36,625 nucleotides of DNA, taken from a virus. The stretch is from positions 1-36,625 of the IMG/VR virus record IMGVR_UViG_3300032893_000179; one strand, given 5' to 3'. The notes beneath the pieces are model-generated. The model was given only the letters and a program-made list of their open reading frames with translations. It had not been told where the DNA came from and did not search any database. A program made the translations under genes and the position numbers. Below, piece after piece: positions 10,804 through 29,795 of this stretch (position 1 is its first letter; each line of letters starts with the position of its first letter).

Positions 10804-10823
10804 CTTCTCTTATAAGAAGTTAC
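10800..10823. terminator. Palindrome between convergent HNH and capsid stop codons
   Basis: GTAACTTCT at 10800-10808 pairs with AGAAGTTAC at 10815-10823 around a 6-nt loop, a 9-bp perfect stem. It contains both stop codons (TAA 10801-10803 on plus, TAA at 10810-10812 on minus). No strong T-run follows on either strand. A bidirectional transcript end or 3'-end stabiliser is likely. Confidence 0.5.
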
Positions 10824-11814
10824 TTACGACATAATCCCCACAACCTTTCCACAAGTTAGTCGTCCCCGCCGTGGTCCCCGTGCCCCCTCCGGTCGCGCCG
10901 ATGCCCGCCTGCGGGATCCATTCCTGGTTGAGAATCTGACGCAGCAATGGTGCCAGGGGCACCGAGCCGGCGTACATGAAATTCTCGGCGGTGAACTCCA
11001 CTTGCTCGTGGACGTACTCGCCGTCTTCCGTGCTCGCCGTCTTGGGGAGCGTGAAGGACCGCATGGCGTTTTCGATGTTCTGTAGGATGTCGAACATCTC
11101 CGTGATGTTCGGCGTGTTCGTGATGGGTTGTTTGACAACATCGAACCAGAAGCCATACGCGGCGGCACCGCGCAGGTCGGCCCACCAGCGTACTTGGCGG
11201 CTTTCCCACATATCCGGCGTCCCGCTGTTGGTGTGGAACTCGACCGGCGTGCGGTCCTGCCAGATGAGCGGCTTGAGATCAGGACGGCAATACATGCCGT
11301 AGAGGGCCAGGCTCTTGCCGTCTCCCGACGCGCAGGTTTTTGTCGTGAGAAGGTTGTCACCGACTCCGTAACCCGATGCCGTCGAGGTGCGCACACCCGT
11401 TGCGATAAAGTCCAGCCCATCGAATGCCAGGGTGCCAGTACCGGCGGCGAGAGCCTTCATCACCATGCGGCTTGGGAAGATTTTGCCCTTCTCGACGAGC
11501 TGCGCCGGCTTACGGAGGAGCCCGCCCGTCTGCTCGTCTTCCACGTCCTCCAGGGTCGCCATGAACTCGGAGTGGTAGACCTCATTCATCACCGAATAGA
11601 TGAACGAGTCGATGTCGCCGTATGTTCGGTAGCCGGACCATAGCTGGAAGCCAGGCACCAGCGTGAACAGGCCGTGGTTTTCGATGCGGGTCGTGCTGGG
11701 TAGCTTGGTGGTGAATTTTTGGTACTTGACCGGCTCCGCGATCTGGACCATCGCTTGTTCGAACTGAGTCTTGAGAGCGGCGGTCAAGACGCTTACTTGT
11801 TGATCGAGAGACAT
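10810..11814 (-). CDS. Major capsid protein, Mu gpT-like
   Basis: 334 aa, starting MSLDQQVSVLTAALKTQFEQ. It has the pattern of the Mu-like major head subunit family: residues 25-65 include PVKYQKFTTKLPST and FQLWSGYRTYGDI. VYHSEFMATLEDVEDEQTGG follows, matching the conserved 'diEDDq.G' segment of the family. The rest is alternating alpha/beta as in the HK97 fold. The last ~30 residues are Gly/Thr-rich. It would form the capsid shell. The gene has a 110-nt untranslated leader with a hairpin also found upstream of the decoration gene, and is followed by a palindromic terminator and the convergent HNH gene. Confidence 0.75.
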   Translation of the reverse strand: MSLDQQVSVLTAALKTQFEQAMVQIAEPVKYQKFTTKLPSTTRIENHGLFTLVPGFQLWSGYRTYGDIDSFIYSVMNEVYHSEFMATLEDVEDEQTGGLLRKPAQLVEKGKIFPSRMVMKALAAGTGTLAFDGLDFIATGVRTSTASGYGVGDNLLTTKTCASGDGKSLALYGMYCRPDLKPLIWQDRTPVEFHTNSGTPDMWESRQVRWWADLRGAAAYGFWFDVVKQPITNTPNITEMFDILQNIENAMRSFTLPKTASTEDGEYVHEQVEFTAENFMYAGSVPLAPLLRQILNQEWIPQAGIGATGGGTGTTAGTTNLWKGCGDYVVSNFL

Positions 11815-12360: not shown

Positions 12361-13779
12361 TTACGATCTCCAGTTGGGTGCCGTGTCCTCATCGCCGTTG
12401 CGGAAGCTGCCATGGTCCGGGTGCGTGCTATACGCCTTGAGCCCATAATGGTCGGCCTGCAGGCGGCGCGTGATACAGGTCTTGGCGCCGAGCTTGTGCA
12501 GTTGCCGCGAGAAGAACCAGTCCTCGCTTTCGCGGCCTTTCTGCCAAAGTCCGTCTTCCCCGCGGATAACGCGCGTCGGGAAGTCAAACCAGGCCGCGAG
12601 TGAGCCGTCCGGGCGCGTCTCGCGAAAGACAGGCCGGCGCAGGTCGCAAATCCACAGGCCCGTATTGTGCAAGAGGTAGGCATTGCCTTCCTCCTGAAGC
12701 GTTTTGCCCGGGCCCTCGGCCAGAAATACCCGGGCAACATCGGCCATGTCGAAGCGTGGCGGCAGCAAAGGCAATTCACGGTTGGTCAGGCGACGGAAGG
12801 CTCCCCATGGGTTACGCAGATCGCCGATGCCGCAACTGAGCACGCCGCGTCCGTCCTTGAGCGCCATGGGCGTTGATACCATGTCGGCGCCCGAATCTTC
12901 GAGTTCGTCCCTGAGAACGTCCACGTAGCCGGGAGGCGGCACCACGTCCGAGTGGCACATCACCCAATGCGTGACCTCTCCAGCCTCCATCTGATTGAGG
13001 GCAGCGGCCCAGAGAGCGTTGAAGTCGTCCCAACCAGTCTCACCGCAACTTTCGGGAAGGCGAATTTCGTGAGCACCCAGCGAGGCCTGCATGATCCCTT
13101 GCGTGATCGTTCCCCAGCCCCAGCTTCTTCCAGGGCAAGCGAGAAAGATGCGGCTGCGTTCGATGGCCTTGCAGCGGCGCACGACCATGGCCGTATCGAC
13201 GCGCCCGAGAATGCGCAGCTCATGCGGCCTGGTCATGATCTTTTCATCAAAGGCGCGGACCACACCGGCGTCGGATGGCATGACGTCGTGGAACATGACG
13301 TGTCCGCCGATCTTCACTCGGCCCAGGTAAAGATCAATGTCCCGGCAGACGTCCTCATAGCGGTGGCTGCCATCAATGAAAAGCAGCGAGCACTCGTCGG
13401 GAATATCGGCCAGCGCATCTTGGCTCGTCTTCGGCACAATACGCACCAGGCCGTTGACGCCCGCATTGTCCAGGTTCTCGCGCATCAGCGTCGGCGAGCA
13501 TGGCCTGGCCGGATTACCGAGAGAGGTCTTGAACGCACCTTCCTGGGCGCCGATGAACGGATCCACGGCAAAAACGGGATGATGATTGCCGGCCTGGCTT
13601 CCGAGTGCCAGCGCGGCCGTCGAGCGGCCCTGGTAAGAGCCGATTTCCACAATGGGACCGTCCGACTGTCGCGCCAATTCATAGAGCGTACCCGCCTCGC
13701 TCCTGGTCAGCCAGCCGTCAATACGAAGGGCTTTGTCCAGGTCGCGCTCACGCCGATCTATGAACGTTTTGGTGGTCAT
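12361..13779 (-). CDS. SAM methyltransferase fused to GT2-like glycosyltransferase
   Basis: 472 aa. Residues ~40-165 form a class I methyltransferase: PIVEIGSYQGRSTAALALG (motif I, Glu45-Gly51), AVDPF, and SLLFIDGSHRYEDVCRDIDL followed by GGHVMFHD. This matches the Methyltransf_24 type found beside sugar-processing enzymes. Residues ~205-460 resemble a GT-A glycosyltransferase: a start SRIFLACPGRSWGWGT, a WVMCHSDVVPPPGYVD segment with the Asp-x-Asp-like position, and a late GRESEDWFFSRQL pattern. The fusion would modify and transfer or cap a sugar. It lies between the decoration and capsid genes, so virion glycosylation is an attractive inference. The ribosome-binding site is AAGAGG just upstream. 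Confidence 0.7.
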   Translation of the reverse strand: MTTKTFIDRRERDLDKALRIDGWLTRSEAGTLYELARQSDGPIVEIGSYQGRSTAALALGSQAGNHHPVFAVDPFIGAQEGAFKTSLGNPARPCSPTLMRENLDNAGVNGLVRIVPKTSQDALADIPDECSLLFIDGSHRYEDVCRDIDLYLGRVKIGGHVMFHDVMPSDAGVVRAFDEKIMTRPHELRILGRVDTAMVVRRCKAIERSRIFLACPGRSWGWGTITQGIMQASLGAHEIRLPESCGETGWDDFNALWAAALNQMEAGEVTHWVMCHSDVVPPPGYVDVLRDELEDSGADMVSTPMALKDGRGVLSCGIGDLRNPWGAFRRLTNRELPLLPPRFDMADVARVFLAEGPGKTLQEEGNAYLLHNTGLWICDLRRPVFRETRPDGSLAAWFDFPTRVIRGEDGLWQKGRESEDWFFSRQLHKLGAKTCITRRLQADHYGLKAYSTHPDHGSFRNGDEDTAPNWRS

Positions 13780-16100: not shown

Positions 16101-17900
16101 TTACGCTGCCAGTTCCGGGTACATCGTGCGCGGCGTCAAATGCGGCGACCGCTTCTTGGCCTCCGCGTAGGTCGTGATTAGGTCATCGGCGGTCATCTTC
16201 TTGCCGTCCGCGCGCGGCTGGCGGGAGAACGCTTCCGAGAAGCGCTGGAACATACTCGTCAGTTCCATCTTCTCATCATCCGTGACCGCGCCCGGGTCCG
16301 GCATCTTGCCATTCTCGCCGGCCCTGACCTTTTCGGCATTGCTGCGCGGCCGGCGGGCCATGATGAGCGCCTTTTGCACGTCAAGCTCGCTCATGTTGAC
16401 CACCTTGCCGCGCTCGGCAAACGTGTGAATCGGCGTGGTCGCGTCGCAGCGCATGAGGATGTCCACGATGTTCGGGCGCCCGCCCGGACGGTCGAGCTCG
16501 GACGGGTCCAGGTGCCCGGTGCGGACGGCGTTTTCGGCAAACTTCTGGATCGTTTCGCGCCTGGTTTCCTCCACGAAGTCATTCACGAACTTCTTGGATG
16601 CCTTGACCTCATTGATCATCGGTCTCAACACGCGCGACACTTCGCGGCGCACGGCCTCCGAAAATTTGGTCGCCTCCGAATGCTGCGCCAGGTGATCGCC
16701 CACGGCAGTCTCCTTTGTGTCAAGGCCCTTGGTGGCGTTGTATTCGTCGCCCACCTTGGGGATTTCCCGCTCGTGCGTGATGCCCGAGACGGTCTGGTTG
16801 TCGAGGACCTCGGCAAACTTGCCGCCGAAGCGCTTGTGGCCGTACTCGCGCATGCGGGCACAGTGCTCCGCGAGCTTTTCCATCGACGCGATTTGCTCGG
16901 TAGGGATGGGATCGACGTTGCCCCCGCCGATCGGATCGACCTCGCTCATCTTGCCCGAGGCGTACTGGTGCGCCATGGCGACCTCATCGCCTTCGGGTTC
17001 GCCGCCGCCTCCCTTGAGTTGCCCGACGATGCGGGCCACAAGTTGCAGCGTATTGTCGTCAAGGGACTCGACATCCTGAGCCGACACGCCACAATCGACA
17101 AGTTGTTTGATAAGTTCGTCGCGGCCCATTGCATCCTCCGCGTGTTTGTTGGACAGGCCGGCTTTATCGAGGGCAATCGCAACGGCCTGTTTCTGCGGCT
17201 TGCCGTGTTCCATTTCGGTTTTGATGTTTTGTCCCACAACGGCGCGGCTCGAGCCTTCTTTCAGCGGCATGGGATGTACCTCACTGAAAACACGGTGAAA
17301 TCCCTTGTTTTTGGTGATGCGCACCGTGCGGTAAAGCTGGATATTGGAAGTGACCTCGCCGAACTCGCTGTAATCGGTCGCTTCAAGGTAGTTGTCGAGA
17401 GACTTGACCTGGGCGAGCTCACCCCCTTGAAAGGAGACGGCACGCAACATTTTCCCCTTGGCAGGAACGCCCTCCGGTGGCGCGTTTTCATCGTAGATTT
17501 CGGCGGAAACGTCGTCGTAAAGGCCCTTTTCGATGCAGTGCGCGATTTTTTTGGGCACGCCCTGGACATCGCCGGCGAGCACCACGCGCTTGCCTCGGCC
17601 ATAACAGCACGGGCATGGCTGCTTGCGACCGTAAATCTCCATCTGGCCGCTATGGTCGCACCATTTGCACGGCACGATTGCCTTCCAGACATCCGTGACG
17701 TTGCCGATGCGCGGGACGCCGGTGAACTCCTGACCTTCCTCGTGTCCGATTTTGCCAGCAGGAATGAAAATTGCCTTGGGGCCTGAAGAGAATTGCCGGA
17801 AGTTGCGAATGATGTCATCGATGTCCTGCTCGGTGTATTCCCGGCCCTTGCGGGTTCCGGCCTGGAATAGCTCGATATTTTTGACCGAGAAGCCTCGCAT
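16101..17900 (-). CDS. Mu gpI-like head maturation protease and scaffold with zinc-finger insert
   Basis: 599 aa. The N-terminal ~170 residues resemble the Mu I protein family: an early GREYTEQDIDDIIRNFRQF, FIPAGKIGHEEG with His53, and LYDDVSAEIYDE with Ser132, a plausible His/Ser protease pair. Between them lies CKWC (78-81) and CPCC plus GRG (96-103), a DnaJ-like cysteine insert that such proteases normally lack. A second module at ~225-255 reads TEMEHGKPQKQAVAIALDKA, a short motif seen in various phage proteins. The remainder is helical and charged, as expected for a scaffold domain, ending PHLTPRTMYPELAA. It would build and mature the prohead. The gene starts 56 nt from a palindromic operator-like site. 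Confidence 0.7.
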   Translation of the reverse strand: MRGFSVKNIELFQAGTRKGREYTEQDIDDIIRNFRQFSSGPKAIFIPAGKIGHEEGQEFTGVPRIGNVTDVWKAIVPCKWCDHSGQMEIYGRKQPCPCCYGRGKRVVLAGDVQGVPKKIAHCIEKGLYDDVSAEIYDENAPPEGVPAKGKMLRAVSFQGGELAQVKSLDNYLEATDYSEFGEVTSNIQLYRTVRITKNKGFHRVFSEVHPMPLKEGSSRAVVGQNIKTEMEHGKPQKQAVAIALDKAGLSNKHAEDAMGRDELIKQLVDCGVSAQDVESLDDNTLQLVARIVGQLKGGGGEPEGDEVAMAHQYASGKMSEVDPIGGGNVDPIPTEQIASMEKLAEHCARMREYGHKRFGGKFAEVLDNQTVSGITHEREIPKVGDEYNATKGLDTKETAVGDHLAQHSEATKFSEAVRREVSRVLRPMINEVKASKKFVNDFVEETRRETIQKFAENAVRTGHLDPSELDRPGGRPNIVDILMRCDATTPIHTFAERGKVVNMSELDVQKALIMARRPRSNAEKVRAGENGKMPDPGAVTDDEKMELTSMFQRFSEAFSRQPRADGKKMTADDLITTYAEAKKRSPHLTPRTMYPELAA

Positions 17901-17972: not shown

Positions 17973-18003
17973 TTTGTGGCATGAGACACAAGAGCTTATT
18001 TCG

Positions 18004-18213
18004 ATGCTAGATCCTTCGATGGCGAGGATCCGCGACCTCTACATGCGCTCGTCGCTCACGCTCGAAGAAATAGGCTTGCGCATGGGTTACGAGGCCGACA
18101 CGGCGCGCAAGGCTGCGTGGCGTTTTCTTTCGCGCACCGAGGATCCACGGATTTCCATGCTCAGACGGTTCAGTAGAGCCGTGGGCGTCACGATGGAGGA
18201 TTTGCTGAAGTGA
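18004..18213 (+). CDS. XRE/Cro-type HTH transcriptional regulator
   Basis: 69 aa from the ATG at 18004; an in-frame TTG at 17974 and an ATG at 18019 are alternatives. The sequence has the five-helix XRE plan: ARIRDLYMRSSLTLEEIGLR, a turn at MGYEADTARK, recognition-helix region TARKAAWRFLSRT, and the C-terminal MLRRFSRAVGVTMEDLLK typical of single-domain Cro-like regulators. It overlaps the MuF gene start as GTGA, so both are co-translated. A palindrome 32 nt upstream is a natural candidate for its binding site, and a near-copy precedes the portal gene. Confidence 0.7.
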   Translation: MLDPSMARIRDLYMRSSLTLEEIGLRMGYEADTARKAAWRFLSRTEDPRISMLRRFSRAVGVTMEDLLK

Positions 18214-20297
18214 GCAATCTTTCGGCGCTCGCCGTGGCCATGCTCGAGCCCGATGCCGATCGCAACGTGCTGGCATCTCTTGCCGACTACGACGATCATT
18301 TGGACGCACTTCTCAATGACGGCGGCGAACTCGCCCGTCTGTCGGAACTCTGCCAATTCTCTGAACAAATCGCAGTCGGCGGACAGGACGGCGACAAAAT
18401 CGAATCCCTGATGAGCGCCGCCCAAAAGGAAGGCGCCGCCACCCTCGCTCGCCTATCCACAAAAGCCCTCGCCCGTGCCATGCGCCGCGGCCCGGCCGCT
18501 TTCCTCAGGCGCTCGGGACGCTTCTTTGACTTCGATGAGCTGTGCGAGTTACAAGAGGTTTTCGCCAAGGCCGCTGCAATGGCAGACCTGCTCGGGCGCT
18601 CGCGCATCCGGTTGCGAGCGGCAAAGGCCGAGCAATATTCCGAGGATGAACTTACCGACTGGTCATGCTTCGCGACGACGGCAATCAAGCCGCTGGCGCC
18701 GATGGATGCGCTGGAGTATTTCAGGAAGCTCGTGCCGAGGCTGGGGATTGATCCAGAGCATTTTGGACCACGAATGTATCGAACCGCTTTCACGATGTCC
18801 GAAGCGAGTTCCACGACGATCTTGAAGAAGTGCCAAAAGGTTATTGCGGACCTTGTGGCAAGCGGCGAGGCGCCACGAAAGGGACGGTTAAAGATCCAAA
18901 GGATTCTTGAGAAGGCTGGCGTCACGCCGGGAGAAGGTTACGCCGAGATGGTCGTCAGGACCAACGTTGGCGAAATTTACCGTCACTCCATGCAAGAGGA
19001 GTTTCTTGATCCAGATTTACGCGACACGTTTCCATGTTGGCGTTTTCTTGGCGTACAAGATGGGCGCGAACGGCACGGGCCTTTGCCTCATAAACCTGAT
19101 CACCGCCGATGGTTCGGCAAATACTTTTCTCGCGATGTCCTTTTTGCCGACGTGCGAGGCCGAGAAGCCCGCGACGTTTGCAACTGCGTTCTTCCGGGAA
19201 ACCAAGTACACGGCAACATTAGGGCGATGTCAAAATCCTGGTATTCGGGGGATGCCTTTGAAGTGAAAATGGCGAGCGGGGTTCTTTTTACTGTCACTCG
19301 AAATCACCCCATATTTACCGAAGATCGTCTCACGGCGGCGTGCCATCTCCAGAAGGGTATGAAGACGTGGTCCCACTTTAATCAAAATCATTTTCTGGCG
19401 GACTGTAACATAGATCAGGCACCAGCCCTGATCGAGGATGTATTCGATTCTCTTCCTCCTGGACTTGATAGTAAACCCGTGTCGCGTCTCGATTTCCACG
19501 GCGATGGGGAATTCATCAAGAGCGATGTCCACGAAATAAGGACCAACCGCAACGGACTGCTGGCAAGGTATCTGCATCGCGCGAAGCCACTCGATAACGT
19601 CGCTCTCGAATCTGCCCTTGACGGACGCATGAGCAGCGTGGACTTGGCGAAGCCGTTGATCTTGCGTCATCATGGACCACTTGAGGGATTCGGACTCGGA
19701 CTGGTTGCGGGCAGTTATTCCCATCCGGAGCAATCGCCTTCTTATAGTCCGACGACTGGTGCCGAATTTAATTGCCAAGGCGTTCTCGGACATGTGGCTG
19801 TCTCTATAAAGAGCGCACAATTCGTTATCGGAAAGGAAAACTTTGTCGCGTTTTCCGATCGCGATTTGGCTTCTCCATTTCGTCACGGTTCCATGACTGA
19901 CGCCGAACTTGGCGGCTATTTCTTGGATGTTAAGACCGGAGCGGACAATTTCTTCAATATCGGAAGGCATTGGTCGTCGCGGCTTCAGTCGGATTTCAGC
20001 ATTGTGTTTCAAGAGGAAACTTTTCATTGTCCCGTGGCTTATGCCCGCTTCATTTGCCAGCTGACCGCAGCTTACCCCAGACATGTATTTCTTGATAAAG
20101 TAGTCAGCGTCAAGCGTTTTCATCACGAAGGCCCTGTGTACAACGTGGAAACCAACGTGGGCTATTTTACGATTGGAAATGAGAAAGGGATAGCGGCACT
20201 GTCAAAAAATTGTCGCTGCGACATGCAGCCCATATCGAAATATCAATGGGCAAGACTCAAGGCTAAAGGCGCCCGTCTTTCGCGCGCTCCGTCCTAA
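18210..20297 (+). CDS. MuF-like minor head protein precursor containing an intein
   Basis: 695-aa precursor from the GTG at 18210, preceded by GGAGGA and overlapping the XRE stop. The N-terminal ~220 residues are helical. The MuF domain spans ~235-325: YAEMVVRTNVGEIYRHSM, PCWRFLGVQDGRERHGPLPH, and a Trp-containing segment leading to DVCN. It resumes after the intein with CRCDMQPISKYQW, so the extein junction rebuilds the conserved CNCRC of MuF proteins. Spliced length is 353 aa. MuF proteins enter the capsid interior near the portal. The gene is on the opposite strand from the rest of the head genes and away from the portal, which is unusual. Its stop overlaps the convergent fibre gene stop. 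Confidence 0.8.
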   Translation: MSNLSALAVAMLEPDADRNVLASLADYDDHLDALLNDGGELARLSELCQFSEQIAVGGQDGDKIESLMSAAQKEGAATLARLSTKALARAMRRGPAAFLRRSGRFFDFDELCELQEVFAKAAAMADLLGRSRIRLRAAKAEQYSEDELTDWSCFATTAIKPLAPMDALEYFRKLVPRLGIDPEHFGPRMYRTAFTMSEASSTTILKKCQKVIADLVASGEAPRKGRLKIQRILEKAGVTPGEGYAEMVVRTNVGEIYRHSMQEEFLDPDLRDTFPCWRFLGVQDGRERHGPLPHKPDHRRWFGKYFSRDVLFADVRGREARDVCNCVLPGNQVHGNIRAMSKSWYSGDAFEVKMASGVLFTVTRNHPIFTEDRLTAACHLQKGMKTWSHFNQNHFLADCNIDQAPALIEDVFDSLPPGLDSKPVSRLDFHGDGEFIKSDVHEIRTNRNGLLARYLHRAKPLDNVALESALDGRMSSVDLAKPLILRHHGPLEGFGLGLVAGSYSHPEQSPSYSPTTGAEFNCQGVLGHVAVSIKSAQFVIGKENFVAFSDRDLASPFRHGSMTDAELGGYFLDVKTGADNFFNIGRHWSSRLQSDFSIVFQEETFHCPVAYARFICQLTAAYPRHVFLDKVVSVKRFHHEGPVYNVETNVGYFTIGNEKGIAALSKNCRCDMQPISKYQWARLKAKGARLSRAPS
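19185..20210 (+). mobile_element. Intein in MuF protein (342 aa)
   Basis: The intein starts at Cys326 (CVLPGNQVHG, block A) and has block B as FTVTRNHPIFT, with Thr363 and His366 of the TxxH motif. Near the end is VYNVETNVGYFTI (block F-like). It finishes ALSKN followed by Cys668 as the +1 nucleophile. The terminal Asn667 is present; the usual penultimate His is Lys, a known tolerated variant in some inteins, so splicing needs testing. No LAGLIDADG endonuclease motif is visible in the sense frame. The middle instead lies opposite the antisense nuclease ORF. Confidence 0.8.
19230..20123 (-). CDS. Homing-endonuclease-like protein encoded antisense inside the intein
   Basis: 297 aa from the ATG at 20121-20123 (a GTG one codon upstream is possible); the ORF is wholly within 19185-20210 and its codons are in register with the sense codons. 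Residues ~16-40, 65-86 and 112-134 each form a helix-turn-helix (ANEAGISHGTMKSFLLKH; AAKFGVSHGTVTKWR; AIKFGTSRRTIRRRL). Residues ~172-242 resemble a Vsr/PD-(D/E)XK nuclease: Glu174 in FESDVIEWL, Asp200 in YFVDIALDEF, PIAVEIETRH with Glu211, Glu213 and His216, then RKRIEYILDQGWCLIYV. Multi-HTH plus Vsr-like nuclease fits an EDxHD-type homing endonuclease. The last residues overlap intein block B and the start overlaps the approach to block F. Transcripts from the minus-strand fibre gene could read into it. Confidence 0.7.
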   Translation of the reverse strand: MKTLDADYFIKKYMSGVSCGQLANEAGISHGTMKSFLLKHNAEIRLKPRRPMPSDIEEIVRSGLNIQEIAAKFGVSHGTVTKWRSQIAIGKRDKVFLSDNELCALYRDSHMSENALAIKFGTSRRTIRRRLLRMGITARNQSESESLKWSMMTQDQRLRQVHAAHASVKGRFESDVIEWLRAMQIPCQQSVAVGPYFVDIALDEFPIAVEIETRHGFTIKSRRKRIEYILDQGWCLIYVTVRQKMILIKVGPRLHTLLEMARRRETIFGKYGVISSDSKKNPARHFHFKGIPRIPGF

Positions 20298-26300: not shown

Positions 26301-27048
26301 AATAATTGTTGAGCACCACCGTTTGACCGGCAGCATAGGTGCGTCCAGCAGGGACGGTAAGCGTTTGCGTACCAGTGGCAACCGTTAGCGATGTAGTGGA
26401 CCTGTCTGTGCTTGTTAAATTGCGCCCGGTGCAAGTGCAAGTTTCACCAACCACCACACGAGATTTGGCTTGACTTGCAGCAGATGGTGTAAAGAATACC
26501 TGGATGCTTTCCGTCTTGTTGACAGCTATAGGAAGGCCAACACCGTTACTGTTACTTGGCCATACTAAGTACATTCCCTTCGATACTTGGCTGGGGTCTA
26601 TGACAATGTTGGCGACATTCTTTGCCGTGTCTAACCAAGACGAACTAGGAAGGATGGCATTGACTAATGTTCCATTACCACTGTTCGTTTGCCCATAGGT
26701 CTTAAAAACTGTATCGCTAGTTAATTGCCATCCAGCTATCGCAAGAGTATCATTTTGCCCAGCTATCGGAGTGATAGCAGAAATTGCCGGTGCCGTACTT
26801 CCCGGTGTTCCTACGCTGCCAGGAGGGTTGAAGGGTGCCCATCCAAGAGGGGCAGCGGGATTGTCGGCGGGGTAGTCTACTCCAGCCGTGAGAGATGGCA
26901 GAGGTAATGTCGCGCCAGAAGAACGGACACCTACGCCAGCCGCAAAAGAACGCAGATGACGGCAACAATACGTCACCAGGCGGCACGTACAGGCCCATTT
27001 TGTCAAGGGATGAAGCCGACTGCGGCGTCTCTTCTTGGTCGCGATCAT
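23374..27048 (-). CDS. Large beta-helix tailspike protein
   Basis: 1224 aa, overlapping the portal stop as ATGA. The N-terminus is very basic (MIATKKRRRSRLHPLTKWAC). Residues ~60-320 are beta domains of IPT/TIG character (ISAITPIAGQNDTLAIAGWQ). At ~365-420 begins a pectate-lyase-like beta-helix: VYMGDYGASGQPNSGLDCTP followed by GGAGKIVFGTRGG and GTYLFKA, the pattern of phage tailspikes (DYGA.GD..DDT.A). Coil-like repeats continue, with a GTFTLTFTQGTTSAIAAGAS domain near residue 850 and further beta-helix near 1040-1180. It probably binds or cleaves a surface polysaccharide. The catalytic residues could not be assigned. Confidence 0.65.
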   Translation of the reverse strand: MIATKKRRRSRLHPLTKWACTCRLVTYCCRHLRSFAAGVGVRSSGATLPLPSLTAGVDYPADNPAAPLGWAPFNPPGSVGTPGSTAPAISAITPIAGQNDTLAIAGWQLTSDTVFKTYGQTNSGNGTLVNAILPSSSWLDTAKNVANIVIDPSQVSKGMYLVWPSNSNGVGLPIAVNKTESIQVFFTPSAASQAKSRVVVGETCTCTGRNLTSTDRSTTSLTVATGTQTLTVPAGRTYAAGQTVVLNNYSFTAPSPANVTTTGLLVASMIGTVTSATTVGGTTTLVLNITTANGSGTYAFWDVCSCWIYWIKSDGSQGAWLTPVELNECHVNFVVPTADTSATYYVWLHNGFGDKRGWAQPLSVVIATADNWTAGGTVYMGDYGASGQPNSGLDCTPALTSALTDLSGGAGKIVFGTRGGASGTYLFKASAGAAYNIQVGGGYAVWLTGISGQNTVLASYAGESFSDGLIRNDYGLVTDLTVDTTAATLTAGGAVGGALVSASSTKNVTLICKNGPENGGSLRPFSYNGTLTNIYHKNLTIHGQGFIGGSGNATLNSGQFYVDGFTYYGTSDGSGTVPSEAAFFFTADTCGVYVNNAVFRHEASLTTNTSSTSLTIAETDGANFQSWNTGASTSTSNLTIGSPNAGPNYSFAVSGLPTSNVVGLPVILLNGGNYIYGTIVSYNGTTLVLSPILTGGSGTFASWTVTIRAVTITTQTNLPISVGDPIMLYGTSDAAPNRNKVTLVGQAAVYNSSTGVLAMAPMDTGVAFTLFKAIGCGTCSSWTFNSTKKADYCQGRIMWAQNCEISDMTFNACQTIFYSTPMWFEAGGTSGDPNKGESFNWENNGMEYVTNVAAATSNTITFYDANYVTISAGATGTFTLTFTQGTTSAIAAGASASTVQTVVQAVLGANNAVVRLYTNPNSGVQTYTIEFAGTLTGSQTSPTIGTGSLTGTGSVTHAAWIHPYQVIITNGKGFAQARYVTGGSGLQLTVDRPWTLTPDPASSRASVGEIAYRVTVHKCALEGNNYFQFQDQYIFYLVPAAANTGFAAFVGGSDIVLRDNDYSGFMRAISVNTGGSTLASPAYMWTVNGCRFNGCCVGVDYAENVSTSGNENGSMFGITFNECLCPTNYNIIPVTLAPAALRVNNYNSTILASSYGNGTFGTSGQNYGAPYGLYSSGSPSGTINFYNTLVYGDDGVNAGSVSTANPTSVTVNEGGTSAFDNFLH

Positions 27049-29723
27049 TCGCCCTTGGCCTTTTTAACAATGTGGTCCACAATGTCGCGTGGCTTGAATA
27101 TGAAATTGGCGGTATCCATGCCGTATTGACTGGCTACGCGCTCGCGGTCTGCTGGCGACATCTTGCGCAGGAGCGCGACAAGCTGCTCCGTCTGATCCTC
27201 ATCGAACGTGAGCAAATGCTTGATCTGCAGCGCACCCGACGAAAAGCTCGGCGCCTTGAGGTGCCGCGACATCTTCGCCGCCTGTGTTGCGATCGTGCCC
27301 GAGGCCTTGATGCCGAGGCGCTCCTTGAGCCAGGCAAGGTCGGCGTGCGACAGGGATTCGAGCGCCTTGGCCATGTCCTTGAGATCCTGGGCGGTCGCCT
27401 TGCCGTGCATCAGTTCCCGGACGCCCTGCTCGATCTGGGCCGGCGTCATGTCCTCGGCGAACATTTTCTTGGTAGGCGCCGTGAGGACGCTGACCTGCTG
27501 GTCCGCGTTGGTGGCGACGAAGGGTGGAATGTAATTCGTGCCGCCAGGGGCATAGAGTTCCGGCCATTCTTTGGCCGCGCCCTCGGCGTGCTCCGTCACC
27601 TTCGGACCGACCATGATGCCAAAGCGGATGTATTCGTTGCCTTCGGCATCCTTGTCATGCCAGTTTGCCATCCAGGTTTCGGGCGCAATCGCGATGCGTC
27701 CAGGTTCTTGAATGGAACCCTGCCCGCGCGTGATGTTGTCCTCGCTCGAGTCCTGACAGATGACTTCTCCCTGCCCGGTTACTGTCAAGACTCCGAGGTA
27801 ATGCCCATAGGCGAAGTCCGCGCCTTTCTCTCTGCGGCTGCCATAGTCCTGAACCGGGCAGATCGTGTAACAGCCACGCTTACGAGCATCCCGCAAATCT
27901 TGGATGCTCATGCCACTTTTGGCTTCCACCTTGAGTCCGAGCGACTGAAGATAAGCGATGATTGCCTTTGGATTTGTGCTTTTCTGGACGTTGGTTCCGA
28001 GCGCCTTTTCCCATTCGCTGATTTTGTCGGGGCCGACGCCAAAGAGCTTGCCGGCGGTCATGGCCTGCGAGGCTCCGCATGAAAACTGGTTCGGCTGCAC
28101 GATGTCCGGGGCAGGCAACGGCGGCAGTTCTTCCACGAATGGACGGATTGTCGTCTTCTCTGCCTTTGCACCATTCTCCCCAAACATCGGCGCCTTGCGA
28201 AAGCCGGCGAGACGGTTTAACGCGAGGGCGCGTCCGTTGCCGTTCGTCTCGTGGTGCGCCGTTTCTTCCGCGGGCGTCTTTGGAGCCTCAGGCGTCGGAA
28301 TCTCAGGATTCGGAGGCGACGACCTTGTCGGGAAGAGATGATCCAGGCCCATCGGCCCCTCGCCCGCTCCCGACTGCTGCTGCGCCGGCTTTTTGAGCAT
28401 GTCTTCGGCGTCGGTGGCCCACGTGCGCCCGTAGCGCTCCTCCATCTCCTTGCGGGATAGCGGCCAGTCCATGTCGTAAAGGCCCTGGTCGATCGCCAGG
28501 CTTTCTTTGAGCTCGGCGTCATCCGTGCCCGTGAGCGTGCCGTGCGGCAGGTCAATGACGTCCGCGTAGTTGCCGGTCAGCATGTCGCGGATCAGCCCGT
28601 CCTCGTGATCGTTCAGGATGTTCTCGCACTGCTCGGCCAGCAGCCATTCCGCCTTGTTCGACTTGGCCTCGTGGATGGCCGATGAGCCGCGCACGGTGCC
28701 AGGGGCGCCCGTCAGGGCCTGGAGCGTGGCGAGCTGGATGGACAGAAAAATATCTTCCTGGCAGTCGCGCCGGAACGATGACCAGTATTCGTCCGAGCGC
28801 CCGGCCAGGTCCACCACCTCAAGTTTTACGCCCTCGGGGACCGCTGCCCACTGCTCCGAGCGCAGCTGCTTGAGGACATTTTCGACCGAGCTTTGCGTGT
28901 GCGCGGCGGGATAGGTTGCATAGGCGACCGGCCGGGCATACTTCTCGGCTACCACGGCGCGGAGCTTCGTCACGGCATCGAGGATCCAGTAGCGCCCGTA
29001 GGCAGCGCGCAGGTCGCTTGTCCCCGTGGGGTTGCCGTACATCGGCATGTTCTGCCAGATGATGAACTCATCCGGCGACCATATCTGCCCGCCGTTGTAG
29101 CGCAGACCCATGATGCCGGTGATGTTGCGGTACTCGTCCATGCGCGGCACAAGATCCTGATCGACGTCCTTCTGCTTCAGGTCGCGGAGCACGCGCTTGA
29201 GGAAAAATCGCTGTCGCCGGTCCCCGTCCTGGAAGGTCCAGATTTTCTCGTTGACGGAGTAACCATCCACGCAGCCTCCGGACAGGACGGACCAGATGAG
29301 CATCGGCACGGCGCCGTGAAAGCGCTTGGTCAGGTTCCACTCGATGAACTCGGCGTGTTCCTTTTGCTCGGGCCGGTCGCCGGCGGGGTGGATCTTGAGC
29401 TCGAGCCCCATGACGCCGAGGAGCTTGCCCAGCAGCGCGGCCTTGACGTTGGGATCCGAGAGCATGCGCCGATAAGCGCGGCGCATCTGCTGCGTTTCTT
29501 CCAGGTTCTGCCAGGCGTCATAGAAGGGGAGAAAGGCGAGGTTGGCCGCTGTGCTCTTAAGCTTTTCCGTCGTGTATTGCTGGCGGTCAGGACGTTCGCG
29601 TGAGAGGAAGGCCTGCGAGCTTGCCGGTGTGCCGCTGCCGTAAAAGTTGGCGCCGAAGCTTGTCGCCAGGCTAGAAAGGAACTGGCCGCTCACCTTGCCA
29701 ATCGAGGACCATACGGAAGGCAT
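27045..29723 (-). CDS. Portal protein (gp29/DUF935-like) fused to a C39-like cysteine peptidase
   Basis: 892 aa from the ATG at 29721-29723; an in-frame TTG at 29754-29756 adds 11 residues. Residues ~75-440 match Mu-like portals: RRAYRRMLSDPNVKAALLGK, HAEFIEWNLTKRFHGAVPML and WSPDEFIIWQNMPMYGNPTG, then AIHEAKSNKAEW. After a Pro/Ala linker, residues ~540-710 look like a papain-fold C39-type peptidase: QPNQFSCGASQAMTAGKLFG with Cys549, GADFAYGHYLGVLTV with His641, and ICQDSSED with Asp658, followed by an aromatic/Gly strand (FGIMVGP). The C-terminal ~180 residues are helical. The portal forms the packaging vertex. The peptidase may take part in prohead maturation, which is inference, and such a fusion is unusual. 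Confidence 0.75.
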   Translation of the reverse strand: MPSVWSSIGKVSGQFLSSLATSFGANFYGSGTPASSQAFLSRERPDRQQYTTEKLKSTAANLAFLPFYDAWQNLEETQQMRRAYRRMLSDPNVKAALLGKLLGVMGLELKIHPAGDRPEQKEHAEFIEWNLTKRFHGAVPMLIWSVLSGGCVDGYSVNEKIWTFQDGDRRQRFFLKRVLRDLKQKDVDQDLVPRMDEYRNITGIMGLRYNGGQIWSPDEFIIWQNMPMYGNPTGTSDLRAAYGRYWILDAVTKLRAVVAEKYARPVAYATYPAAHTQSSVENVLKQLRSEQWAAVPEGVKLEVVDLAGRSDEYWSSFRRDCQEDIFLSIQLATLQALTGAPGTVRGSSAIHEAKSNKAEWLLAEQCENILNDHEDGLIRDMLTGNYADVIDLPHGTLTGTDDAELKESLAIDQGLYDMDWPLSRKEMEERYGRTWATDAEDMLKKPAQQQSGAGEGPMGLDHLFPTRSSPPNPEIPTPEAPKTPAEETAHHETNGNGRALALNRLAGFRKAPMFGENGAKAEKTTIRPFVEELPPLPAPDIVQPNQFSCGASQAMTAGKLFGVGPDKISEWEKALGTNVQKSTNPKAIIAYLQSLGLKVEAKSGMSIQDLRDARKRGCYTICPVQDYGSRREKGADFAYGHYLGVLTVTGQGEVICQDSSEDNITRGQGSIQEPGRIAIAPETWMANWHDKDAEGNEYIRFGIMVGPKVTEHAEGAAKEWPELYAPGGTNYIPPFVATNADQQVSVLTAPTKKMFAEDMTPAQIEQGVRELMHGKATAQDLKDMAKALESLSHADLAWLKERLGIKASGTIATQAAKMSRHLKAPSFSSGALQIKHLLTFDEDQTEQLVALLRKMSPADRERVASQYGMDTANFIFKPRDIVDHIVKKAKGE

Positions 29724-29795
29724 CCGGAATACCTGAGAGGGACGGACACTGTCCAAAGTGTAATCGGAACGCTGACGATGGGATAGCCGTTATGT

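Follow-up and report, generated by a model that had tools for sequence, protein, structure and literature searches.

The window analysed here, the whole 36,625-nucleotide stretch of viral DNA, carries on its plus strand the gene of a MuF-type head protein that is interrupted by an intein, and much of the DNA of this intein is also open on the minus strand. The plus-strand features are listed below with the evidence on which they rest.

18210-20297 (+): ORF of the MuF-type head protein, 695 aa
18210-19184 (+): N-extein, MuF-type minor head protein, ending ...RDVCN (PHROG matches, head-gene neighbourhood)
19185-20210 (+): intein, Cys1 to terminal Asn, 342 aa (junctions, Pfam matches in homologues, empty alleles)
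19185-19382 (+): N-terminal half of the Hint fold, sense residues 1-66, with the TRNH block (AlphaFold pLDDT 92-98; Foldseek)
19389-20027 (+): sense spacer between the splicing halves, containing DFHGDG...SDVH (mostly low predicted confidence; sense omega 0.88 in homologues)
20052-20210 (+): C-terminal half of the Hint fold, with block F (VYNVET) and the terminal Asn (AlphaFold pLDDT 71-97)
20211-20297 (+): C-extein, CRCDM..., and stop codon

The N-extein matches the PHROG families phrog_220 (minor head protein, E 2.3e-7) and phrog_15127 (head protein, E 7.8e-18), and its assignment is further supported by the presence of Mu-type portal, head protease and major head genes in the window. All three of these genes (portal 27045-29756, protease 16101-17900, major head 10810-11814) lie on the minus strand, so that the MuF gene and a small ORF upstream of it (17974-18213), both on the plus strand, run against the head operon. 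This differs from the annotated phages examined, in which MuF and the head genes share one orientation. An endonuclease gene antisense to the window's MuF gene is therefore co-oriented with the operon and would be read with it. A methyltransferase gene (12361-13779, minus strand; Methyltransf_24 4e-20; phrog_2675, DNA methyltransferase) is located between the head genes.

A preliminary description of this DNA had placed complete splicing blocks within the conserved CN-CRC of a MuF protein, and each of them is found there: Cys1 at 19185, TRNH at 19296-19307, the terminal Asn at 20208-20210 and Cys+1 at 20211. The junction context reads VCN/CVLPGN...ALSKN/CRCDM, which gives VCN-CRC when the exteins are joined, and it agrees with about 60 other loci that share the insertion site. 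Cys1 and the block B His of TxxH are invariant across the sense alignment (A7), and Pfam Intein_splicing is matched by 46 of 52 homologues, the window copy not being among those that match. Inteins usually, if not universally, have a penultimate His before the terminal Asn; this position is occupied by Lys in the window intein, by Ser in many homologues and by His in some. The AlphaFold model of the sense intein (overall pLDDT 65) has the RadA and Mtu RecA inteins as its top Foldseek matches, and most of residues 137-281 are modelled at a pLDDT of only 30-50. The earlier reading that the sense middle holds no endonuclease agrees with this low confidence and with sense matches that include no nuclease family; an endonuclease hidden in the sense middle was considered and rejected for the same reasons. 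Judged from sequence and model, the sense insert is an intein with a middle that is predicted to be unstructured, and protein splicing is inferred.

The antisense reading frame and its predicted protein

In exact codon register with the sense ORF, the minus strand encodes a protein of 297 aa from an ATG or 298 aa from a GTG one codon upstream. The in-register 297-aa frame of the preliminary description is thus exact, its coordinates and residue numbers being correct when counted from the GTG. The frame ends within the splicing domain, so the overlap comprises block B plus the spacer.

19230-20123 (-): putative antisense homing endonuclease ORF (ATG at 20123, stop at 19230-19232; alternative GTG at 20126)
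19992-20108 (-): HTH unit 1, antisense residues about 6-44 (AlphaFold helices; HTH_58 5.7e-5)
19848-19967 (-): HTH unit 2, residues about 53-92 (HTH_28 1.1e-9; AlphaFold)
19725-19829 (-): HTH unit 3, residues about 99-133 (HTH_24 1.2e-6; AlphaFold)
19677-19709 (-): linker RNQSESESLKW, consensus RxRSEAExLKW (marked columns kept in 48-53 of 53 sequences)
19299-19616 (-): Vsr/DUF559-like PD-(D/E)XK nuclease domain, residues about 170-275 (Foldseek, profile)
19605-19607 (-): predicted catalytic Glu173 (E in 52 of 53 sequences)
19527-19529 (-): predicted catalytic Asp199, mirrored in sense SDVH (D in 52 of 53 sequences)
19494-19496 (-): predicted catalytic Glu210, AVE strand, mirrored in sense FHGDG (E in 51 of 53 sequences)

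A profile built from the homologues without the window recognises the window's antisense frame with an E of 6e-65, and the same profile gives no score for the other five frames of the window or for 200 shuffles. Besides the families listed above, the protein matches Pfam HTH_23 (1.2e-8). The match of MTES_1575 REase to the window protein is weak (0.012); among its homologues this family is matched by 25 of 53 (best 8.7e-10) and DUF559 by 12 of 53, and DUF559-like domains coded in the ordinary way in bacterial genomes match the antisense profile.

In the AlphaFold model (pLDDT 84), a compact nuclease domain comes after the three HTH units. The first nuclease among the Foldseek matches of this domain is the catalytic domain of I-Bth0305I (3r3p; TM 0.68-0.69 over 91 columns, E 3.5e-3), to which identity is just 14%; 3hrl (TM 0.67) and Vsr (TM 0.56) are also matched, and 3hrl, a solved endonuclease-like protein, is matched by profile as well (E 1.5e-6). 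Because the Foldseek search of the PDB with the antisense protein gave no match below E 0.001, the fold assignment rests on the agreement of structure, profile and active-site residues. The E and D of the EDxHD motif are present and no conserved His-Asp is seen in alignment A6; without a residue-level alignment to I-Bth0305I, the protein is not counted among the EDxHD enzymes.

Three HTH units and a Vsr/PD-(D/E)XK-like core had been proposed from the sequence alone, and both are now supported by HMM matches, predicted structure and Foldseek. Failure to detect nuclease or HTH homology in the antisense protein would have refuted that proposal; both were found. The active-site residues named at that time, Glu174, Asp200 and Glu211, are E173, D199 and E210 when counted from the ATG, and the near-complete conservation given above confirms their choice. 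As suggested, the sense stretch DFHGDG...SDVH mirrors the two antisense active-site strands, AVE and YxVD. An HGDG string that had been proposed for other MuF inteins is real, DFHGD being conserved in the sense alignment, and its interpretation as the shadow of a conserved antisense nuclease is supported.

At the point directly facing the block F His position (GHVYDLQ), the antisense strand has an ATG or a GTG in 49 of 63 loci. For the Leu of the same block, 39 of 46 loci use CTC, compared with 11 expected from the codon usage of the same genomes, and this codon yields the antisense GAG of a Shine-Dalgarno sequence, often GGAGG or GAGGT, at a fitting upstream distance; the His is CAT in 16 of 19, compared with 6.9 expected. 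As far as sequence can tell, then, many homologues have the antisense start and its Shine-Dalgarno written into splicing block F, expression being inferred. The window copy has diverged at block F (GPVYNVE) and is without the block F start and strong Shine-Dalgarno of most homologues; its antisense start seems to lie a few codons further in. A promoter scan near this start found no sigma-70-like site.

Homologues, empty sites and exchange

The same two-strand layout occurs at the same MuF site in more than 100 other phage sequences. A tblastn search of phage records with the antisense protein retrieved 33 records. In all loci examined among them, which come from phages of Gordonia, Rhodococcus, Pseudomonas, Cronobacter, Idiomarinaceae, Vibrio and Aggregatibacter, the gene is antisense to head genes. 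Together with scans of IMG/VR this gave 98 loci (65 after removal of near-identical copies) in which the antisense and in-register sense ORFs are open and the other minus frames contain many stops. When the sense intein was the query, the antisense nuclease was present in 80 of 80 of the best 80 of 408 matches (E <= 1e-56). These loci share some contigs with those found by the antisense query, and because sense retrieval ranks full-length matches first, it could have overlooked mini-inteins that lack the antisense gene. An endonuclease is thus encoded within the element, at its own insertion site, in all 98 loci found by the antisense query and in the 80 found by the sense query among the best 80 of 408 matches. 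The multi-family alignment (A1) was too divergent for use in scans of the collection, and the sense protein alone, as a query against viral contigs, found nothing. A scan of genome contigs returned a single bacterial contig, from Atlantibacter; a class-wide genome search returned mainly DUF559-like or HTH-only proteins, and a motif scan of its loci found no MuF intein except that of Atlantibacter. One candidate locus (L069) was excluded for a match limited to the HTH and a sense frame that is not open, and an apparent internal stop in the antisense frame of another (L061) was rejected as being only the terminal stop.

NZ_LN890657.1 (Candidatus Promineifilum breve), listed as a plasmid, has a further homologue at 26761-27582 (27% identity, E 1e-10), which lies under a gene with the annotation 'phage minor head protein', and this replicon is probably a phage genome. 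The homologous insert of Rhodococcus phage REQ3 (2506-4284) has Ala in place of Cys1, an extein CGH for CRC and a shorter antisense protein of 181 aa that lacks the HTH region; it is possibly a class-2-like or degenerate version. Idiomarinaceae phage 1N2-2, which also has a MuF intein with an antisense nuclease, has a separate annotated HNH endonuclease gene (380-898) near its head genes and in opposite orientation.

Occupied and empty alleles can be compared directly. The Gordonia phages Stultus, Geodirt and Jabberwocky have an empty site with an uninterrupted VAPHEVIN-CRCTM, and Vivi2, Fosterous, Angelicage and Affeca carry the intein precisely at that site, with flanks that are mostly 94-97% identical. 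The site is likewise empty in a prophage of E. coli L73, which at the DNA level is 91-92% identical to an enterobacterial phage that carries the intein. The similarity of antisense proteins does not follow that of the exteins: it is 82% versus 51% for one pair of loci (L002/L071) and 27% versus 62% for another (L088/L205). Vivi2 and Angelicage share all 150 extein residues that precede the insertion (100% identity), and their antisense endonucleases are only 84% identical, a mismatch that suggests either that the element was acquired separately or that it changes fast. In two of the 80 loci from the sense query (L147, 2280-3254; L154, 589-1410) the antisense frame is broken by internal stops and the sense intein is intact, as expected of a decayed homing gene.

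Selection on the two strands and the proposed cycle

The window has no close relative, and selection was therefore measured only in homologues, with omega pooled over 11 independent pairs; in this register, codon position 1 of the sense frame is position 3 of the antisense frame. In the exteins omega is 0.09 for the sense frame and 2.62 for the antisense frame, and the N- and C-terminal Hint halves are constrained in the sense frame (0.21 and 0.13) and near neutral in the antisense frame (0.86 and 0.85). In the middle of the intein the values are reversed, the sense frame being near neutral (sense 0.88, antisense 0.21; asymmetry p = 7e-29), so that selection switches strand at the borders of the splicing domain. 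The comparison of synonymous and nonsynonymous change proposed earlier thus finds that homologues keep the antisense frame open and constrained in the middle, which could have refuted the antisense gene had that frame shown stops or neutral drift. Differences at sense positions 1/2/3 number 371/284/786 in the exteins and 847/304/602 in the intein middle. Furthermore, 61 dereplicated loci contain no TTA, CTA or TCA in the overlap on either strand, each of which would stop the opposite frame; the joint log10 P of such avoidance, from extein codon usage, is about -254 and -189, values that treat codons and loci as independent and are indications, not exact. The pattern persists at 36-45% G+C, a range in which the other minus frames are interrupted by tens of stops.

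These observations bear on whether the antisense ORF could be no more than the passive reflection of a conserved sense protein, left open through codon usage. In G+C-rich genes its codon register does favour long ORFs on the reverse strand, and the sense alignment has conserved motifs, DFHGD among them, but the codon-position rates and the omega values of the middle contradict such a reflection, the antisense frame has a confident fold and homology to HTH and nuclease families where the sense middle has neither, and the layout holds at low G+C; we consider this explanation practically ruled out. The antisense ORF is a real protein-coding frame and not a chance ORF, its expression being inferred.

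We propose that the phage head-protein gene of MuF type in the window very probably harbours a mobile intein with a homing endonuclease nested antisense within it, for which splicing, expression, cleavage and homing are all inferred. The antisense gene would occupy, in codon register, the place that the endonuclease domain has in an ordinary intein. The plus strand would be translated through the whole insert, the ends of which are predicted to fold as a splicing domain, excise and rejoin VCN-CRC. From the minus strand a separate protein would be made, recognising DNA through its tandem HTH units and carrying a nuclease of predicted Vsr-like fold. Based on the occupied and empty alleles, this protein is expected to cut MuF genes that lack the insert, with repair copying the intein in. 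The DNA of the middle would then be read both ways, with selection acting mainly on the antisense protein and the sense product being merely a stop-free, disposable linker.

Two other accounts accept the antisense nuclease and question the rest of this cycle. The insert might be a cleaving or retained Hint domain, comparable to bacterial intein-like domains, that does not splice and is spread by the antisense nuclease; the absence of a penultimate His in the window (Lys) and the Ser of many homologues would be consistent with this. It is nevertheless very unlikely, given the conservation of Cys1, TxxH, the terminal Asn and Cys+1, the restoration of the uninterrupted N-CRC of empty alleles by removal of the insert, the true RecA and RadA inteins that are the best Foldseek matches, and omega values of 0.13-0.21, which show both splicing halves to be strongly constrained. 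It is also conceivable that the nuclease is real but that its main job is not homing, the intein sheltering a gene whose product attacks the DNA of competing phages at the MuF site, by marker exclusion or superinfection interference, or regulates the head operon by means of its HTH units. Phage homing endonucleases are able to exclude competing markers as well, tandem HTH units could affect transcription, and in the window the antisense gene runs in the same direction as the head genes. The presence or absence of the whole element at one site between near-identical flanks is, however, the trace of a homing cycle, and swaps between diverged MuF genes and the decay of the antisense gene with the sense intein kept point the same way. 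We regard a chiefly non-homing role as unlikely, if somewhat less so than a Hint domain that does not splice, and such a role and homing can coexist.

Mobile inteins are usually viewed as one polypeptide with splicing and homing domains. With a mobile intein whose endonuclease is nested antisense, these two functions are divided between two proteins, one encoded on each strand of the same DNA, and homing could consequently be regulated independently of head-protein production. The element also offers a large and measurable case of antisense dual coding, in which the swap of omega at domain borders provides a natural test bed for the evolution of overlapping genes. Because databases annotate the whole stretch as head protein, annotation misses the antisense endonuclease family, and 'sense' motifs that are conserved, HGDG for example, mirror an active site that goes unseen.

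Relation to known mobile elements

In canonical mobile inteins the endonuclease domain (LAGLIDADG or HNH, as in PI-SceI) is in the same polypeptide. The MuF intein has in common with them self-splicing ends, a conserved protein site, an endonuclease between the splicing halves and empty alleles. Whereas the canonical endonuclease is coded in the sense frame as part of the intein, here it is a separate, opposite-strand protein, and the sense middle has no endonuclease. An intein with an opposite-strand endonuclease was not found in the literature searched, which excludes a 2025 preprint on 'non-canonical' actinobacteriophage inteins (10.1101/2025.01.02.630785), and priority for the layout is uncertain. 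On balance we favour the view that these loci represent a widespread and undescribed class of inteins with antisense endonucleases, in which start and ribosome-binding site often lie in block F and the DNA is selected on one strand and merely kept open on the other.

I-Bth0305I and related Vsr-like 'EDxHD' homing endonucleases are reported in connection with fractured genes and split inteins (Dassa 2009 and Taylor 2011, as cited in PMC10448857 and PMC3943268). I-Bth0305I provides the closest solved nuclease fold (TM 0.68) and likewise has its nuclease tethered to DNA-binding modules, although identity over the match is only 14%. To our knowledge, antisense placement of an EDxHD endonuclease inside an intein has not been reported. 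The Vsr-like nucleases of DUF559 and MTES_1575 share profile-level homology with the antisense nuclease domain, but they are ordinary sense-coded proteins without the arrangement of tandem HTH units and RSEAExLKW at an intein site.

Insertions of the ShiLan type, in which an HNH endonuclease is encoded out of frame in phage methylases, resemble the MuF intein in being mobile, in residing in a phage gene, in leaving the host frame open and in placing the endonuclease in another frame (PMC11855218). They are read on the same strand, encode an HNH enzyme and have no intein splicing domain and no detectable ribosome-binding site (PMC11855218), whereas the MuF intein uses the opposite strand, a Vsr-like nuclease and true splicing blocks, and often has a Shine-Dalgarno in block F.

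Antisense homing endonuclease genes are also known from nuclear group I introns, such as Didymium squamulosum L2066 and Dir.S956-2, and one such endonuclease has been shown to be expressed and active (PMC9548176). Common to both systems is an endonuclease gene that runs opposite to the host gene within a self-splicing mobile element. The introns differ in that they are removed at the RNA level, encode His-Cys nucleases and reside in eukaryotic rDNA; moreover, their endonuclease gene is an insertion in a peripheral loop, so that there is no second protein frame to keep (PMC9548176).
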